This document shows positions 14,517 to 48,359 of a stretch of 62,264 nucleotides of DNA, one piece after another. A program made the translations under genes and the position numbers. This stretch comes from Terriglobia bacterium (GTDB lineage: Bacteria; Acidobacteriota; Terriglobia; Terriglobales; Acidobacteriaceae): contig JAIQFA010000024.1 in the NCBI GenBank assembly GCA_020073525.1, forward strand, positions 1 through 62,264. The letters run 5' to 3'. Within the stretch, counting starts at the first letter, position 1; every line of letters starts with the position of its first letter. The notes below the pieces were generated by a model. The model saw nothing but the letters and a program-made list of their open reading frames with translations. It ran no database searches and had not been told where the DNA came from.

Positions 14517-15812
14517 ATGAACAGCGTCACCACGGCTGAACCCGAGAACGGGGCCGCTGAATCCGCGAACGAGGATGGAGCGAACCTCGTCCCGCCCGGT
14601 TCGCGGAGGACATCGGGTAACGTCGAACCCTATGAGTCGCGCGTGCTCGATTTGCTGATCGTTCTATCGCAGCGCAAGCAGGTCATCCTGCGGACGACGC
14701 TGGTGGCAGCCGTTCTGGCCGCAGTCGTTTCCCTGCTCTTGCCCAATCGCTACACCGCCACCACCAAGATCCTCCCCCCGCAGCAAAGCCAATCGCTGGC
14801 GGCATCGATGATCGGGCAACTGGGCGCCTTGGGGCCGATGGCGACGATGGCGCAGAAAGATCTGGGGCTGAAGAATCCGAACGACCTGTATGTAGGCATG
14901 CTGCGCAGCCGCACGGCAGAAGATGCCTTGATCCGGCGCTTCGATCTACTTCGGGTGTATCGCGACAAACTGAAGATGTCCGATGCCCGCGAAGACCTGG
15001 AAGAATCCAGCAGCATCGTCCTCAGCAAGGAGGGCTTCATCACCATTTCGGTCGAAGACAAAGACCGCAGGCGCGCGCCCCAAATCGCCAACGCTTATGT
15101 CGACGAGTTGCGCCGGCTGACGCAAGACCTGGCCATCACCGAAGCCGGGCAGCGGCGGATATTCTTCGAGCGCCAGCTGGGAATGGCCAAGAACAACCTG
15201 GCCGACGCGGAACAGGCTTTGAAAGAAACCGAGCAGAAGACGGGGCTGATCCAGTTGGATGGTCAGGCCAAGGCGATCATCGAGTCGGTGGTCAAACTAC
15301 GGGCGGCCATCGCCGCCAAAGAAGTGGAATTGCACGCCATGCGGCTGTTTTCCACCGAGCAGAATCCCGACGTCCTGTTGGGCGAGCAGCAACTCTCCGG
15401 CATGCGCGGGCAATTGGCACGGCTCGAAACGCAAAGCCGGGGCCCAGCCGGCGTCCAGGTTCCGGCCAGCAACGTCCCGGAAGCCGGCTTGCAGTATGTC
15501 CGCAAACTGCGCGATCTGAAGTACGCCGAGACCATCTTCGAACTGCTGGCCAAACAGTATGAAGCCGCACGACTTGACGAAGCCAAAACCGCCGCCATCA
15601 TCCAAGTCGTCGACCCTGCCATCGAGCCCGACCGCAAATCCTGGCCGAAGCGGACTTGGATCGTTGGAATCGTGACTTTCCTGGGGTTTTTCGGTTCGGT
15701 GGGCTACGTCTTGTTGGTCGAGGCCCTCCGCCGGCTGCGTTTGAACCCCGAGGTCGATGCTCGCTGGACCACGCTGAGGACGTCAATGCCGGATCTCCAA
15801 CCCCACACTTAG
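14517..15812 (+). CDS. Wzz/GumC-type chain-length determinant
   Basis: The 431-residue co-polymerase has two membrane segments. The first is at about residues 55-75 (TTLVAAVLAAVVSLLLP), the second at about 382-402 (IVGIVTFLGFFGSVGYVLLV), and between them is a long coiled-coil periplasmic domain (ERQLGMAKNNLADAEQALKE). The YTATTKILPPQQS strand after the first helix is typical of Wzz. There is no C-terminal BY-kinase, so chain length would be set without the usual Wzc-type phosphorylation. GAGGACCGGG precedes the ATG, 10 bases after the export gene. Confidence 0.9.
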   Translation: MNSVTTAEPENGAAESANEDGANLVPPGSRRTSGNVEPYESRVLDLLIVLSQRKQVILRTTLVAAVLAAVVSLLLPNRYTATTKILPPQQSQSLAASMIGQLGALGPMATMAQKDLGLKNPNDLYVGMLRSRTAEDALIRRFDLLRVYRDKLKMSDAREDLEESSSIVLSKEGFITISVEDKDRRRAPQIANAYVDELRRLTQDLAITEAGQRRIFFERQLGMAKNNLADAEQALKETEQKTGLIQLDGQAKAIIESVVKLRAAIAAKEVELHAMRLFSTEQNPDVLLGEQQLSGMRGQLARLETQSRGPAGVQVPASNVPEAGLQYVRKLRDLKYAETIFELLAKQYEAARLDEAKTAAIIQVVDPAIEPDRKSWPKRTWIVGIVTFLGFFGSVGYVLLVEALRRLRLNPEVDARWTTLRTSMPDLQPHT

Positions 15813-15852
15813 CCCAGCCACACTCTGGGCCAATATCGAACTCTCGAATGCG

Positions 15853-17316
15853 ATGAGCTCTTTTCCTCCAAACTCCGCAACCGGCGCGGCCGCTTCCCCC
15901 AAACTCGGAGCCGCACTGGAAGTGCTCGGGTACCTGACCTTGATCGCTGCCGCCACCCTCTGCTACCTCATGGGTTGGCTCAGTTGCGAGGGAGCGGAGG
16001 TTCTCACCGCGCTGCTGCTGATTTCGCTGATTGGCCTGGCGTGGAAACGGTTCGATGGCGGACGGCATCCTTGTTTCTTCTTTCTGTGCACCTTGACTCT
16101 GTTCCAGGCCGGCCAACTGCTGGCGTACTGCGCCGGAGGAACGTCTGACATCTTTCATGTCACGCTGATGACGTGGTATCAATTTGGCCTGCCCCGCAAT
16201 GTGGCGGCGTTGGCGCTGCTGTCGCTTGCCCTCTCGGCCATCTGCATCTATGCGCCCTGCCGATGGAACTACCGCTCCTTTGCTCCGCCGCGCAGCGGAT
16301 CCTTCCGCCGCTTCTTGCCTTACCTTTACGTTCTGTTCTGGCTGAGCGTGCCCGTGCAGCTGTTCAAGAATTACCGCTACTACGAATACGCCAAGGAACA
16401 CGGTGGATATCTCGTCCTCTTTCTCGACCATGGAGGCATGGCTGCGAGCATCCCCATTGCGGTGCGTGCCATTTCGCTGATCAGCCTTCCCGCGTTCGTC
16501 GGCATCTTCGTCCTGGAGGGGCGGAAGAAGTTTCTCCGCGTTGCAACTGTGATCTACTTCTTGATTACGGCGCCGGTTCTCCTGACCGGGTCGCGAGGCG
16601 CCATTTTCAGTCTGGTGCTTTCGCTCTGGTATGTCGCGAAGGTGAAATCGGGCAAACCCGCCCGGCTGTACGCGCTGGGGCTGGTGGGAATCGGTCTCAT
16701 CCTGGTGGCGGCCTGGATCGGCTCGCTCCGCATCGAGAATGACAAATCCCGCCCGTTCGCCGCTCCTTCCCAGTTCCTGGCGACCCAGGGCGCATCCTTC
16801 AATGTCACCGAGGTTGCGATTGCTTATCGGCGGCATTTTGCTCCCTACATTCCTTCCTATCTTGCCAGCGAATTGCAGTCGGCGTTCGTCGCACCCGATC
16901 AGGCGAACTACAGGGTGGGGAAACATTTCAACGACGATGTTGCGATGTTTCTGAACCCGACGGACTTTCTCTTGGGACGGGGCACCGGCTCGGCGTATCT
17001 GGCGGAAGCGTATTTGGTGGGCGGACTCTGGGGAATCGTGCTCGTCTCCGGATTGCTGGGCGCTCTCCTCCACGGAATGCAGGCGCATTCCCGAAATCCC
17101 CTCACACTCTTCCTGGTCGCCATGATCCTGCCGGACGTGCTGTGGATGCCCCGGGGCGGGCTTTTGGACTGGGTATCGGCGTCGCTACGAGTTGGAATCT
17201 CGGTGCTCTTGCTGCTGCTGGGATGGTATTTCTACCGCGCCCTGGCCCGAATCGGCTGCGTTCTTTGGCGAGACTACTCCGCCGTCGACCACCGCGTGCC
17301 GACACTCGGCATTTAG
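15853..17316 (+). CDS. O-antigen polymerase-like membrane protein (Wzy candidate)
   Basis: A 487-residue protein with about 10-12 hydrophobic segments. A long extracytoplasmic loop around residues 300-370 is followed by a GRGTGSAYLAEAYLVGGLWG segment. This resembles the conserved tail of oligosaccharide repeat-unit polymerases, in which a Gly/Arg-rich loop precedes a membrane helix. Wzy proteins join lipid-linked repeat units in the periplasmic leaflet. The call rests on topology and on lying between Wzz and a glycosyltransferase, because sequence conservation in this family is very low. The start at 15853 has no strong ribosome binding site. Confidence 0.7.
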   Translation: MSSFPPNSATGAAASPKLGAALEVLGYLTLIAAATLCYLMGWLSCEGAEVLTALLLISLIGLAWKRFDGGRHPCFFFLCTLTLFQAGQLLAYCAGGTSDIFHVTLMTWYQFGLPRNVAALALLSLALSAICIYAPCRWNYRSFAPPRSGSFRRFLPYLYVLFWLSVPVQLFKNYRYYEYAKEHGGYLVLFLDHGGMAASIPIAVRAISLISLPAFVGIFVLEGRKKFLRVATVIYFLITAPVLLTGSRGAIFSLVLSLWYVAKVKSGKPARLYALGLVGIGLILVAAWIGSLRIENDKSRPFAAPSQFLATQGASFNVTEVAIAYRRHFAPYIPSYLASELQSAFVAPDQANYRVGKHFNDDVAMFLNPTDFLLGRGTGSAYLAEAYLVGGLWGIVLVSGLLGALLHGMQAHSRNPLTLFLVAMILPDVLWMPRGGLLDWVSASLRVGISVLLLLLGWYFYRALARIGCVLWRDYSAVDHRVPTLGI

Positions 17317-43793: not shown

Positions 43794-44741
43794 TCAAAGA
43801 AAGGTATATACCCTCGATAACGCGTCGATCACCATTGCGGTCGTGAACAGATGGTTCTGGTCAGAGAACAGTTGGTCAGGATCTCCGGGCTTCCATGCTT
43901 CCAGGTGATCACGCCTGCTCACGCGCAACATCGGCCCACTTCTCCAGCTTCCATCGGACGCCTGATCTTCGATCAGTTCAACCACCAGGGGCCAGATGTC
44001 ATGGTCTTGCGGACAGCGTGGCAGGGACAGAAGGCTCGATACGAGAAGAGCAGACTCGAACGGATGCTGGGGACAAGTATCCAGCAGCGTTTCCCGTGTC
44101 CCCCGCAGGTTCATGTTCAGTCTGGCTGCCTTGAGCAGAAGCAGACTTATCTCTGTGCTATAGAGAAAAGAGGTCCACCAGAATGGGTGCCATATACCGG
44201 CAGGAGTTTTGTGGTTGAGAACAAATTGAAGACCGCGATCGACCGTCTCACCCGCAACACCGTATTTCGTCATCATCGCGAGAACTGCCGCCGGCGTCAC
44301 GTCCGTATGCGAGACAGCCCAAGATCCCAGATCCGGGTGGCCGCGATAGGTGGCAAAACCGCCGTCCGTGCATTGAAAGCTTTGGAGACATGCATAGGAG
44401 GCCTCACGGACTCTCTTTCCTTCAGACGCCAAGAACAATATCGCCAGAGCGGTCGAGTCGGCATCTGAGCCGACTTCTTCGTTGTATCCCCAGCCGCTGT
44501 CGGGAAACATTCTCTCGTCCAGCCAATCCGACGCAAGACCGGTCGAGACCGACGCCCGCTCCCTGAGACCGGGGGGGAGACCCCTCAACCTACAGCCGAC
44601 AAATGCGGTCGTCCAAATCGAGGACTCTCCTGGAGGCAGGTCCCAATCGACCCAACTCCCGTCGCGGCGTTGTTGGCTCAATATGTATTCCAGGGACCAA
44701 CCGAGAACGCGCTCCAGACCCTTTGTGCGCTCACAATTCAT
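43794..44741 (-). CDS. half-size terpene-cyclase-like toroid protein
   Basis: 315 residues built of alpha/alpha-toroid repeats with QW-like motifs (QQRRDGSW at 23-30, FQCTDGGF at 122-129, QASDGSW near 265). Residues 93-97 are DADST, at the place of the DxDDT catalytic motif of squalene-hopene and class II diterpene cyclases; the middle Asp, the proton donor in that family, is kept and the last Asp is Ser. A later SHTDVTPAA also fits. Squalene cyclases are about twice as long; this equals one toroid domain. It overlaps the upstream gene by 11 bases, the last of five coupled genes. Cyclisation of a prenyl chain is inferred. Confidence 0.6.
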   Translation of the reverse strand: MNCERTKGLERVLGWSLEYILSQQRRDGSWVDWDLPPGESSIWTTAFVGCRLRGLPPGLRERASVSTGLASDWLDERMFPDSGWGYNEEVGSDADSTALAILFLASEGKRVREASYACLQSFQCTDGGFATYRGHPDLGSWAVSHTDVTPAAVLAMMTKYGVAGETVDRGLQFVLNHKTPAGIWHPFWWTSFLYSTEISLLLLKAARLNMNLRGTRETLLDTCPQHPFESALLVSSLLSLPRCPQDHDIWPLVVELIEDQASDGSWRSGPMLRVSRRDHLEAWKPGDPDQLFSDQNHLFTTAMVIDALSRVYTFL

Positions 44742-45846
44742 CGGACGTGCTTGCGCAGGGGGGATGGGGTTTCAGGTAAATGGTGGTGTACTCCTGCTGC
44801 CCTTTCCATCCCAGTCCCGAATAGATGTGCGTGCTTACCTTGGCCGGACTCGTCTGCCCGGCGGCGATGACATCTAGCAGTTCCACGTAAGGAAGTGCAT
44901 CTACCTTTCGAAGTGCCAGCCAGCGCAGGCACCGGTCTCGGGCCTGCGAGTCACTCTGGAACAAACAATGACCGCAGAACTCGATTTTTGCATCCGTCCG
45001 CCGGCTTAGAGTTGTGCCAATTCCAACCGAGAAGACGACCGATTGTGTAGGGTACGCGCGGTCTTCCCCCAGCATCACTTCTGTGTATTGCGCGAACGCG
45101 TCTGCATACTGCTCGCCCCCGAAATGCTCAAGCAGGCCCTCATAATAGGGCACACGATTCCCGTAGCCGCTCAAGTAGACTCTGCCAGTCGGATTGTCGT
45201 CTCCACTCAGTGAGATCGCCATCCCGAGTGGCGACATTTTGCCTGCGACCAATCGCCTGAGTTCATGTTGTTGTTTGGGATCTCCAAAATGCGCCGCGAA
45301 GCGATCAAGCCTGTCCCATTGCTCGCTCTCTGTGCCGTTCTTGCCGTTGATGTAAACCTTGAGTCCGCACTTTCCTCCGGGCGCGAAACTCGCTCCGATC
45401 CAGAATGTTCCGCCACGATCGGGATCGGCTTCGTGGGCATTCACTGTCGCGCTTCTGTCGATCAGAGCGCCAATGTAATCCAGGTCTCCTTTAAGCCGCA
45501 GCAATGCCGAAAGTTCTCGTACCCTGCTGTCGATAAATTCTCTTCCGTCGGTATAAGACAACCCTGGATCGCCGGCCTCACTCAGAAATTGCAGCGGTAC
45601 AACTCCATGGCCCAATGCCAGCGCATACTGAATGGGCGTGCCGTCGTGGTTCAACGTTGAGGACCGAATTGCCTGTGCGCCTGGATGCAGACCCAAAGAC
45701 TCGCTGCATATGAGTTCATAGGCCCGATGGACCCGAGCCGATGCTCGCTCCAGCCCAAACCTGGGTATGAGCGCCTGAAGTTGCTCGGAAACGAGATCGT
45801 ACCAGGAGCTTTCCAGGCGCCCACGCGGTTGAGTGTTTTGCAGCAT
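44731..45846 (-). CDS. ABBA/DMATS-like prenyltransferase candidate
   Basis: 371 residues, starting at an ATG (45846) with AGGGGGCG upstream; a TTG two codons earlier is in frame. It is mostly beta strands alternating with helices. Repeated strand signatures (LKVYINGK, GRVYLSGYG, STHIYSGLGWKG, TIYLKPHP) resemble the phosphate-lining strands of ABBA-fold aromatic prenyltransferases. The N-terminal STLNHDGTPIQYALALG also fits the substrate-side region of the DMATS group. No signal peptide or membrane helix. Family assignment is from pattern memory, not a search; an unrelated beta-rich enzyme is possible. Coupled with the toroid protein it would prenylate and then cyclise a substrate. Confidence 0.5.
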   Translation of the reverse strand: MLQNTQPRGRLESSWYDLVSEQLQALIPRFGLERASARVHRAYELICSESLGLHPGAQAIRSSTLNHDGTPIQYALALGHGVVPLQFLSEAGDPGLSYTDGREFIDSRVRELSALLRLKGDLDYIGALIDRSATVNAHEADPDRGGTFWIGASFAPGGKCGLKVYINGKNGTESEQWDRLDRFAAHFGDPKQQHELRRLVAGKMSPLGMAISLSGDDNPTGRVYLSGYGNRVPYYEGLLEHFGGEQYADAFAQYTEVMLGEDRAYPTQSVVFSVGIGTTLSRRTDAKIEFCGHCLFQSDSQARDRCLRWLALRKVDALPYVELLDVIAAGQTSPAKVSTHIYSGLGWKGQQEYTTIYLKPHPPCASTSDEL

Positions 45847-45862
45847 GGTCAAGAGACGCCCC

Positions 45863-46630
45863 CTAGGCTTTCCCCTTCTTCTGCGGCAGCGCCGCCTTCT
45901 TCCATCCAGGCCTGGTGTGCTGATCGCGGCGGCCAGGACCGTCTTCCGCCTTCAACAGTTCAAGCTTGATTCGTGACGGGACCTTGCAGTGGAAAAGTAC
46001 GGCCTGACCCGGTTGCAGTTCCACCTTGCCAGGTTCGCAGCCGCGCTCGGAACACTCGACCTTCACCGGATTGGGCGGACGATACGGCGTCTTGCCAATC
46101 TTCGGGTAGCTGACGGTGACCTCTCCCTTTCCCTTGCCGAGCACGTTCGTAACGGAATAGGTTCCGGGACGGAGAATAACTGCCGAGAAAATGTCGTCGC
46201 CTTTCAGTTCGCGGCTGTCGAATTGGTTTTGTTCCTTGGGATCTTCCGCTGCCTTCCCGACGCGCACGGCATAACCACCAGCGCCCGCGGAGACGTGGAA
46301 CACGGCATATCCCTTGGGGTTGAGTTCGAATTTGGTCAGCGCCTGGGCGCCCTCCTCGTGGCAGCCGCAGCCACTATCCCCGCTATTGGCGGTAGGGGTC
46401 GCCGGACGGGTCCCGAAAGCTGCCAGATCAATGTTGGCCTGCGCCACCGCACTGTTCCTGTCCACATTGATGTAGAAGCCCCCCAGACTCTCCTTGCCCT
46501 GGTACACCACTCCCCTGTATTGACCCGGCTCCAGGAAGCGGTGTGTCACTCCTCCAAGCATGGTGAGTGAAGCGCTGTCCAATCCGATTTGAGTGAAGAG
46601 ATTCTTGTCAAAGGTCATTTTCATAGTCAT
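45863..46630 (-). CDS. unknown beta-rich protein of the five-gene cluster (orfC)
   Basis: 255 residues from an ATG that overlaps the upstream stop (ATGA). I do not recognise the family. Features seen: a Cys-rich stretch SGDSGCGCHEEG near residue 85, a Gly-rich HVSAGAGGYAVRV, beta-type segments such as IFSAVILRPGTYSVTNVLG, a later VECSERGCEPGKVELQPG and a basic, Gly/Lys-rich tail ending KKGKA. No signal peptide or membrane helix. The repeats of PGxY and PGQA turns suggest Ig-like or carrier-like beta domains. Its place between the two unknown genes and the prenyltransferase suggests a substrate-binding or structural role. Confidence 0.6.
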   Translation of the reverse strand: MTMKMTFDKNLFTQIGLDSASLTMLGGVTHRFLEPGQYRGVVYQGKESLGGFYINVDRNSAVAQANIDLAAFGTRPATPTANSGDSGCGCHEEGAQALTKFELNPKGYAVFHVSAGAGGYAVRVGKAAEDPKEQNQFDSRELKGDDIFSAVILRPGTYSVTNVLGKGKGEVTVSYPKIGKTPYRPPNPVKVECSERGCEPGKVELQPGQAVLFHCKVPSRIKLELLKAEDGPGRRDQHTRPGWKKAALPQKKGKA

Positions 46631-47538
46631 GCTCCCACATTCGCTTGGACGATCATTTCTTTCGGGGTGATGGTTGCGGCCAAGTCCCGGATGGGGATCT
46701 TCACCGGAATGAGTCCACCCGTCGCTGGAAGGATGGGGAACGGATCTTCGAACTGATAGATGGGATACTGGCTGGCAAAATAATCCGCAATTGCGGTCTC
46801 CAGTATTCCCACCAGACCGAAGACATTGCTCAACAGGTCCGAGAGCCATTCCGCGATGCTGGTCGTGATACCAAGCAGGCTCGTGATCAAGTCAACGATC
46901 GGCCCAAGGAACGCCATGATGATGTCGATCGCCCAACCTGGCAGCCACGACGGAAACAAGTTATGGATCGCGTTGTTGATCGCGTTGATCAGAATGTTCT
47001 CGACCGTGGCCGGAACGTCGATCAGCGCCACATTGACCCATTCCGGATCAATGAAAATCTGCCATTGGTTCGAGTGGCCGTTAAGCTCGGCATCCAGATC
47101 GGTCCAGTTCGGCAGACGGGCCGGATCGACGAAGTATTTCGGCAACAGGCTCGCCTTCAGATCGATGATCTTGGAAGTCAGGCCCGAAAGGTTCAGGTCC
47201 ACACAAATCGGACCGCCGATACAGAAGCCTGGAAATCCCACCAGACATCCGTTCCACGGGTCGGGAACGATGCAGAAGCTGGGAATACAGAACCCGGGCA
47301 AGTCGAGGCACAGTTTGAAGTCGAGGGTCCCAAAGACGATCTCGACATCCTGTAGTTCGATCGTGTTGTCGTTGTTCAACTGCAAGTTGCCCCCGGCGAG
47401 ATGCACGCTGACGGCATAACTGGCGGAGAACGGCCCGAAGTTGGCCGAGTCGGACTTGGAGAGGCTGAAGTTCTTCTCCACCTCGTTGAACAATTGTTGG
47501 AACGCTTTTGCTGAGGCTGCTATCGTGATGTGACTCAT
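46627..47538 (-). CDS. unknown amphipathic protein of the five-gene cluster (orfB)
   Basis: 303 residues; the ATG overlaps the upstream stop (ATGA). Unknown family. The first third is beta-like; then comes a compact Cys/Phe/Pro-rich stretch (LPGFCIPSFCIVPDPWNGCL, then GFPGFCIGGPICVDL, six Cys). It is followed by a long amphipathic helical region (about 170-255, with IDIIMAFLGPIVDLITSLLG) that could insert in or bind a membrane or lipid. A beta-like end IPIRDLAATITPKEM closes it. A lipid-binding fold such as TULIP is conceivable but not shown. No signal peptide. Confidence 0.6.
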   Translation of the reverse strand: MSHITIAASAKAFQQLFNEVEKNFSLSKSDSANFGPFSASYAVSVHLAGGNLQLNNDNTIELQDVEIVFGTLDFKLCLDLPGFCIPSFCIVPDPWNGCLVGFPGFCIGGPICVDLNLSGLTSKIIDLKASLLPKYFVDPARLPNWTDLDAELNGHSNQWQIFIDPEWVNVALIDVPATVENILINAINNAIHNLFPSWLPGWAIDIIMAFLGPIVDLITSLLGITTSIAEWLSDLLSNVFGLVGILETAIADYFASQYPIYQFEDPFPILPATGGLIPVKIPIRDLAATITPKEMIVQANVGA

Positions 47539-48359
47539 GGCGCCACCGTTAGAGTGATGAATACCTTCAATTGATCGTCTTCAATTGCAGGGTTGTTGGG
47601 AATTGGCGGATTCGGCGTGAGCTGCGCGGTGATGGTGGCGAGGCTCAGCAGCGGGATATCGAAGAGCATTGTGGAGATCGGGAAAATCAGCTTTTCCTTC
47701 AACAGCAATTCGAACGTCGTCTTCAAATAGCAGTTGATGTTGGCGGAAAGCCCTTTCGGCTCGATGCCGACGACATCCACGCCGTCCACGATGCCAACCA
47801 GACAAGGTTTCCCCCCGACGTTCTGCACCGCGACGTGGGCCACAAGAAAAGCGTCAAGGCAGAAACAAAGCAGCTTGCGGGTGGGTGGAACGACTTGTGG
47901 TGGCGGCTGTTTATTGTCCCTGGCAGGCGACTGATCCGGCGTCGGCAGGAACTTGTCGAGGAATTCAGACGGGCAATCCATCCCTCCGCAAATTCGCACG
48001 TGCATGGCAAGATGCTGTTGCGGAAGCGGGGGGTTGAGTGGCGCCGGCAGCTTCACCACATTCCCAGGGTAGAAATCCACTTCCGCCTTGACCAGTTGCA
48101 CGCAGAAATTCAGGCCCACCGGCGGCGAGTCTGCGCCCAGAATCGGAATTGGGCCTACAACGGTGAACAGTGGATTGTTGTGATTGGTGACATCGATGGT
48201 GTGGGCCACCGGGCTACAGGCAAGTTGTGGGTGGTCGTTCACATATTGCGTCGCATAGTTGAACCACGAAGGACGCTGTCGCATCACGTGCTGAGCAACG
48301 AGATTGATGCCGTCTTCATGGACTGCGGCGTACAGGTCGCATTGGTCGGTAAATGCCAT
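47535..48359 (-). CDS. unknown protein of the five-gene cluster (orfA)
   Basis: 274 residues from the ATG at 48359, with GGAG nine bases before it. Unknown family, first gene of the run. It starts AFTDQCDLYAAVHEDGINLV, an amphipathic helix, followed by a QRPSWFNY element, beta-like segments, a Pro-rich linker (KQPPPQVVPPTRK) and a Cys-containing LLCFCLDAFLVAHVAV. A C-terminal beta segment (VFITLTVAP) resembles the end of orfB in style. Scattered Cys (about nine) are not in a recognised metal motif. No signal peptide. Confidence 0.6.
   Translation of the reverse strand: MAFTDQCDLYAAVHEDGINLVAQHVMRQRPSWFNYATQYVNDHPQLACSPVAHTIDVTNHNNPLFTVVGPIPILGADSPPVGLNFCVQLVKAEVDFYPGNVVKLPAPLNPPLPQQHLAMHVRICGGMDCPSEFLDKFLPTPDQSPARDNKQPPPQVVPPTRKLLCFCLDAFLVAHVAVQNVGGKPCLVGIVDGVDVVGIEPKGLSANINCYLKTTFELLLKEKLIFPISTMLFDIPLLSLATITAQLTPNPPIPNNPAIEDDQLKVFITLTVAP

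Follow-up and report, generated by a model that had tools for sequence, protein, structure and literature searches.

A recurrent five-gene cassette with a predicted aromatic prenyltransferase, an MstE-like terpene cyclase and a possible lipid-holding partner

A stretch of 62,264 nucleotides from a Terriglobia bacterium (assembly GCA_020073525.1, listed contamination 5.65%; contig JAIQFA010000024.1; hereafter the window) carries on its minus strand a cassette of five closely spaced genes: orfA, orfB, orfC, the ABBA gene and the toroid gene. We propose that a prenyltransferase with a predicted DMATS fold would attach a long isoprenoid to tryptophan or indole, that an MstE-like class II cyclase would cyclise the attached chain, and that OrfB, which has a predicted TULIP fold, would hold the oily product, probably together with OrfA and OrfC. 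We assign a probability of roughly 0.45 to the complete reading, in which a cyclised prenyl-indole or prenyl-tryptophan product is held by OrfB, and regard its enzyme half alone, prenyltransferase plus cyclase, as very likely. The sequence families of both enzymes, the conserved gene order and a natural enzyme fusion in a related genome are direct observations; tryptophan or indole is the putative acceptor by analogy with the nearest structures and the fused enzyme NctPC, and OrfB is the putative holder of the product. The features are:

47535..48359, minus strand: orfA, 274 aa, without known family, many invariant cysteines
46627..47538, minus strand: orfB, 303 aa, predicted TULIP-type lipid-binding fold, best conserved of the five genes
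47245..47265, minus strand: PDPWNGC segment of OrfB, residues 92-98, with Trp95 at 47254-47256
45863..46630, minus strand: orfC, 255 aa, without known family
44731..45846, minus strand: ABBA gene, 371 aa from ATG, predicted ABBA-barrel DMATS-type aromatic prenyltransferase
43794..44741, minus strand: toroid gene, 315 aa, predicted single-toroid class II (MstE-like) terpene cyclase
44448..44465, minus strand: DADSTA acid motif, cyclase residues 93-98

All five open reading frames (ORFs) lie on one strand where the original prediction, made from the sequence of the window, had placed them, joined by ATGA overlaps or short gaps: orfA/orfB and orfB/orfC each overlap by 4 nt, a 16-nt gap separates orfC from the ABBA gene, and the ABBA and toroid genes overlap by 11 nt. 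An alternative in-frame TTG start at 45852 would extend the ABBA product to 373 aa. Pfam and NCBIfam give a family name to the toroid gene only. The view that orfA, orfB and orfC belong to no known family holds in both collections, with the qualification that OrfC has one sub-threshold PKD match in Pfam.

The predicted model of the ABBA gene product contains, as had been anticipated, an ABBA barrel of five repeats, the feature by which DMATS membership is judged. Its nearest solved structures are DMATS-type enzymes; identity to the bacterial tryptophan prenyltransferases of this type (5-DMATS, 6-DMATS, IptA, CymD, PriB) is only 15-20% in the aligned rows, and the protein has no Pfam match. Tyr167, Tyr226 and Tyr359 are present in all 50 aligned rows and Arg224 in 47; we take the tyrosine and Lys/Arg positions to be diphosphate-binding residues. 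Position 92, which falls at or next to the LVEPG glutamate of the solved enzymes, is Glu in 45/50 rows and Asp in 4/50, and is presumably the catalytic acid near the indole. The product is thus predicted, from its model, to be a DMATS-type aromatic prenyltransferase.

Its neighbour matches Pfam SQHop_cyclase_C at 2.9e-10, with the NCBIfam squalene cyclase models below cut-off. When its profile (A5) was compared with solved structures, short single-toroid chains ranked first (8pak, 8paj, 6ij1 and MstE) and squalene-hopene cyclase after them; in these short chains, as in the cassette protein, a single toroid spans nearly the full length. The acidic motif expected of a class II-type toroid is present by sequence as DADSTA, invariant in 12/12 aligned rows and found also in 8pak; 8pak and 6ij1 have both the acid motif and YWW in common with the cassette protein in the alignment. 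We predict a monodomain MstE-like class II terpene cyclase with a single alpha-alpha toroid, which differs from MstE and the short chains in length (315 versus 346-367 aa) and in being coupled to a DMATS-type partner. A class II cyclase requires a chain bearing several double bonds, so the donor would be a C15-C20 isoprenoid. A toroid gene on a Deinococcus plasmid has no named partner among its neighbours in an incomplete PLSDB table, where a hypothetical protein adjoins it.

The pairing itself has a precedent. In the available description of NctPC (PMC13290415), an ABBA prenyltransferase and an MstE-like cyclase are fused in one protein that acts on tryptophan of ribosomal peptides. Chemistry of this sort, in which a peptide tryptophan is prenylated and the chain then cyclised, is a recent discovery (NctPC, reported in 2024). 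Both domains occur in the cassette, in the window as two overlapping ORFs and not fused as in NctPC, and a genome of the same family (G358) encodes a single 678-aa ORF that joins ABBA then toroid (L025:7487-9520 (-)), has a sub-threshold Pfam Trp_DMAT match and fits the description of NctPC. The cassette further differs from a NctPC-type maturase in the addition of OrfA-C, partners of no known family.

Upstream of the G358 fusion lie a 224-aa protein that is rich in Gly and contains one Trp, possibly another protein acceptor candidate, and a 243-aa protein, both without a Pfam family. With the fusion protein as query, 7 of 396 phylum genomes matched; in the six besides the window's own genome, the match was confined to the toroid half or its vicinity. 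In two further genomes a toroid domain is fused to a different N-terminal domain (L034:6597-8879 (-) and L035:6796-9135 (-)), in which no similarity to ABBA was detectable, and adjoin Transglut_core3 and asparagine-synthase genes, a neighbourhood that we take to resemble a lasso-peptide cluster. The drimentine enzymes DmtA/DmtC were rejected as the same system, being of another kind, a membrane cyclase and a phytoene-synthase-like enzyme, in the portion of PMC6173783 that was available.

The model of OrfB points to a TULIP fold, which it is predicted to share with BPI, LBP, YceB, CETP, juvenile-hormone-binding protein and P47/OrfX without matching any of their families. In VIA-align, for which the stated background tops at 8 and just the first eight OrfB rows exceed that value, the scores were 11.4 for BPI, 11.3 for LBP, 10.1 for YceB, 9.5 for CETP and 8.2 for juvenile-hormone-binding protein; judged by name, the top 35 of the 50 rows presumably represent TULIP or TULIP-like proteins. 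Bacterial TULIPs include P47, OrfX2, YceB, DUF4403, DUF2140 and DUF2993 in the accessible part of PMC6791001, and Pfam reports none of the families named there for OrfB. More generally, OrfB has no Pfam match up to E 1, P47/OrfX included, and no NCBIfam family. The earlier suggestion that OrfB could hold a lipid agrees with the predicted fold, and the lipid link itself is plausible. By eye, OrfB has no signal peptide; OrfA and OrfB are both rich in near-invariant cysteines, which is unusual where no signal peptide is evident.

The only ground for including OrfA and OrfC in the proposed complex is that they accompany OrfB in every untruncated locus seen. Relatives at E <= 0.001 in the protein collection number 721 for OrfB, 1167 for OrfA (by profile) and 90 for ABBA; among the 120 listed of the 1167 OrfA relatives, every name given is 'hypothetical protein'. 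OrfA was also considered as an OrfB paralogue and set aside for lack of profile similarity, which would still allow a shared fold.

We looked for the cassette in other genomes. Across 84,980 genomes of named species, a motif-based search with orfB gave 11 loci; the scan used two peptide motifs, one being (V/I)PDPWNGC, and is biased toward OrfB proteins with Trp95, so that other loci may have been missed. All five genes were found in the same order and on the same strand in 10/11 loci, a recurrence beyond chance, bearing out the expectation that the order is conserved outside the strain; in the eleventh (L013) the contig ends inside orfB, with orfC, ABBA and toroid present. Intergenic spacing in the ten full loci is -22 to +23 nt, apart from two L007 values (-59 and -88) that probably reflect a script-chosen start too far upstream. 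The hosts are Acidobacteria (L003, L004, L013), Terriglobia (L007), Nitrosomonas (L005, L006), Dormibacterota (L008), Pseudonocardiales (L009, L011) and Paracoccus luteus and P. endophyticus (L010, L012), making this gene order common to bacteria of four phyla.

The cassette is rare among the genomes surveyed. In the phylum sample, ABBA occurs in 1/297 genomes and orfB in 2/297, the two orfB carriers found by profile comprising one with adjoining enzymes and one without. In the family sample ABBA occurs in 5/398 and orfB in 3/398 (equal-size samples). ABBA is present in each of these three genomes with orfB; the remaining two ABBA genomes are G505, whose contig starts within orfC, and G358 with its fusion. 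This survey and the named-genome scan are not independent at L003/L004 (versus G395/G447). Mean between-group identity is highest for OrfB (60.5%), followed by OrfA (49.5%), OrfC (47.4%), toroid (41.4%) and ABBA (32.8%). Gene trees recover identical close groups for all five genes and disagree at deep nodes; with six groups, 4/10 between-gene comparisons reach Mantel p < 0.05, and joint inheritance of all five genes is therefore not proved.

Several observations weigh against the complete reading. The OrfB model is of moderate quality (predicted local distance difference test, pLDDT, 75.9; predicted template modelling score, pTM, 0.64), its root-mean-square deviation to BPI is 5.0, and Foldseek matches to it are weak, the best being CETP at E 0.019. 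OrfA and OrfC lack a predicted fold, and profiles relate neither one to OrfB. In ABBA, residue 165, expected to face the diphosphate, is Lys/Arg in only 42/50 rows. Finally, locus L016 contains orfA-B-C but, on its 11-kb contig (in an assembly that is 83% complete), nothing that matches ABBA or the toroid below E 0.7, and L025, with the fused enzymes of G358, has no orfA-C within 18 kb. The enzyme half and the orfA-C half can thus occur apart, as these two loci each hold one half; among nine genomes of one class, no further enzyme-less relative was found beyond the one already known (1/9).

We next weighed other explanations of the same genes. In one, OrfB is itself the substrate: ABBA would prenylate Trp95 and the cyclase would fold the chain, so that the TULIP protein would come with its own polycyclic lipid built in. 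The tryptophan chemistry described for the fused relative NctPC (PMC13290415, in the part available) favours this, as does Trp95 itself, which sits in the predicted turn of PDPWNGC between strands 88-93 and 97-102, falls in the most conserved ten-residue window of OrfB, is Trp in 34/34 rows of alignment A2 and 19/20 of A6, and recurs with its pattern in 119/120 OrfB relatives listed. In our alignments OrfB alone among OrfA-C has an invariant tryptophan, and the A6 exception, with Phe at position 95, is L015 (which belongs to L016), the one relative in which the enzymes were not seen. Against this stand the invariance of Trp198 (34/34 rows of A2) and of Trp159 (20/20 rows, L015 included), a tryptophan in 108/120 wider OrfA relatives at a position that is Ala in the window, the use of free amino acids or small indoles by the nearest solved DMATS enzymes, and the dependence of Trp95 exposure on a moderate model. 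There is, moreover, a single enzyme-less relative, and its conservation of 4/9 invariant positions in the ten-residue window versus 47/67 elsewhere (rows that include metagenome proteins) is a weak contrast. The loss of Trp95 in L015 is a lead and not proof, being one case from that 83% complete assembly in which Trp159 stays.

That no conserved precursor ORF was found beside the cassette also favours modification of OrfB. ORFs of at least 20 codons, taken from up to 3 kb to either side of 12 loci, were compared at E 0.001, with three near-identical pairs excluded, and no conserved short ORF emerged as a precursor of a ribosomally synthesised and post-translationally modified peptide, although fewer than 160 upstream bases were available at L004/L011 and none at L013. 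Six matches were obtained: three between the window and L004, two between L003 and L007, and one weak match between L008 and L004 (5.9e-4). The three shared by the window and L004 lie immediately ahead of orfA in differing reading frames and so reflect conserved DNA; those of L003/L007 are an extracytoplasmic function (ECF) sigma gene and an ORF facing it. None of the six recurs as a precursor. We consider OrfB as substrate unlikely overall; its specific form, in which OrfB is geranylgeranylated on Trp95 and the chain cyclised in place to give a full-size protein whose polycyclic terpene would serve a TULIP complex as built-in ligand or anchor, is slightly less likely still.

Also improbable, a shade more so than OrfB as substrate, is a soluble meroterpenoid pathway that makes a small prenyl-indole from free tryptophan or indole, with OrfA-C serving export, self-protection or stabilisation without direct product binding. 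DMATS enzymes, judged by the nearest structures, mostly use free tryptophan derivatives, and in Pseudonocardiales two further genes adjoin the cassette: directly downstream in L009 lie a cytochrome P450 (13907-15226 (+)) and a glycosyltransferase (15415-16356 (+)), with similar ORFs in L011. The best NCBIfam match of the P450 is pentalenolactone synthase, at 220 bits versus a 700-bit cut-off. OrfA-C are, however, better conserved than the enzymes, which would be odd for accessories, and the 11 loci compared share few neighbours: ECF sigma genes, a distant transporter-like pair, one short ORF common to L003/L007 and a 763/780-aa protein.

It is very unlikely that OrfA-C form a P47/OrfX-like TULIP assembly with its own job in lipid uptake or delivery, the enzymes supplying one of several lipids, as P47/OrfX score below BPI, LBP and YceB in the fold comparison, neither OrfA nor OrfB matches a Pfam family (up to E 1) or, in the sequence search, any PDB chain, P47 and OrfX chains included, apart from one chance-level OrfB row (E 1.5), and the enzymes are complete in 10/11 loci of the motif scan, which may miss others.

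The neighbours of the cassette vary by locus. The ECF sigma genes of L003:7781-8356 (-) and L007:8397-8969 (+) are 45% identical, and a gene similar by eye (L036:7641-8387 (+)) adjoins an isolated toroid gene; both L003 and L036 further contain a large protein that we take to be TPR/CHAT-like. The transporter-like ORFs of L003/L004 (446/455 aa, 28% identical) lie several kb from the cassette. The 763/780-aa protein, 55% identical between two distant hosts, is upstream of orfA in L012 (6783-9071 (+)) and downstream of orfC in L016 (1297-3636 (-)), carries one or two PQPxPP motifs, has no Pfam or NCBIfam match and is absent from the remaining 12/14 sequences searched. Radical SAM and heparinase-like genes lie upstream in Nitrosomonas L005. 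A phage or plasmid element was rejected for want of matches: orfB has none among 50,697 phage records and 72,556 plasmid records, ABBA has none in plasmid records, viral contigs scanned by motif yielded no ABBA relative, and none of the five proteins matches PHROGs or PADLOC.

We return to the proposal of a cyclised prenyl-indole or prenyl-tryptophan held by OrfB. The predicted folds connect with prenyl and terpene chemistry and the gene order extends beyond the strain, OrfA and OrfC, without predicted fold, being the exception. The idea of an undescribed isoprenoid-modifying system survives in part: the prenyltransferase-cyclase pair is of a known kind, already described for NctPC in the part of PMC13290415 available, and the partnership with OrfA-C looks new, no description of the five-gene set being recognised in the literature searched at listing level, with most subscription literature beyond reach. 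Two loci (L010 and L012) are in named Paracoccus strains, which should make the cassette testable at the bench. By tying such an enzyme pair to a predicted TULIP protein, the cassette would reveal either a protein that carries meroterpenoids in bacteria or a new form of protein lipidation.

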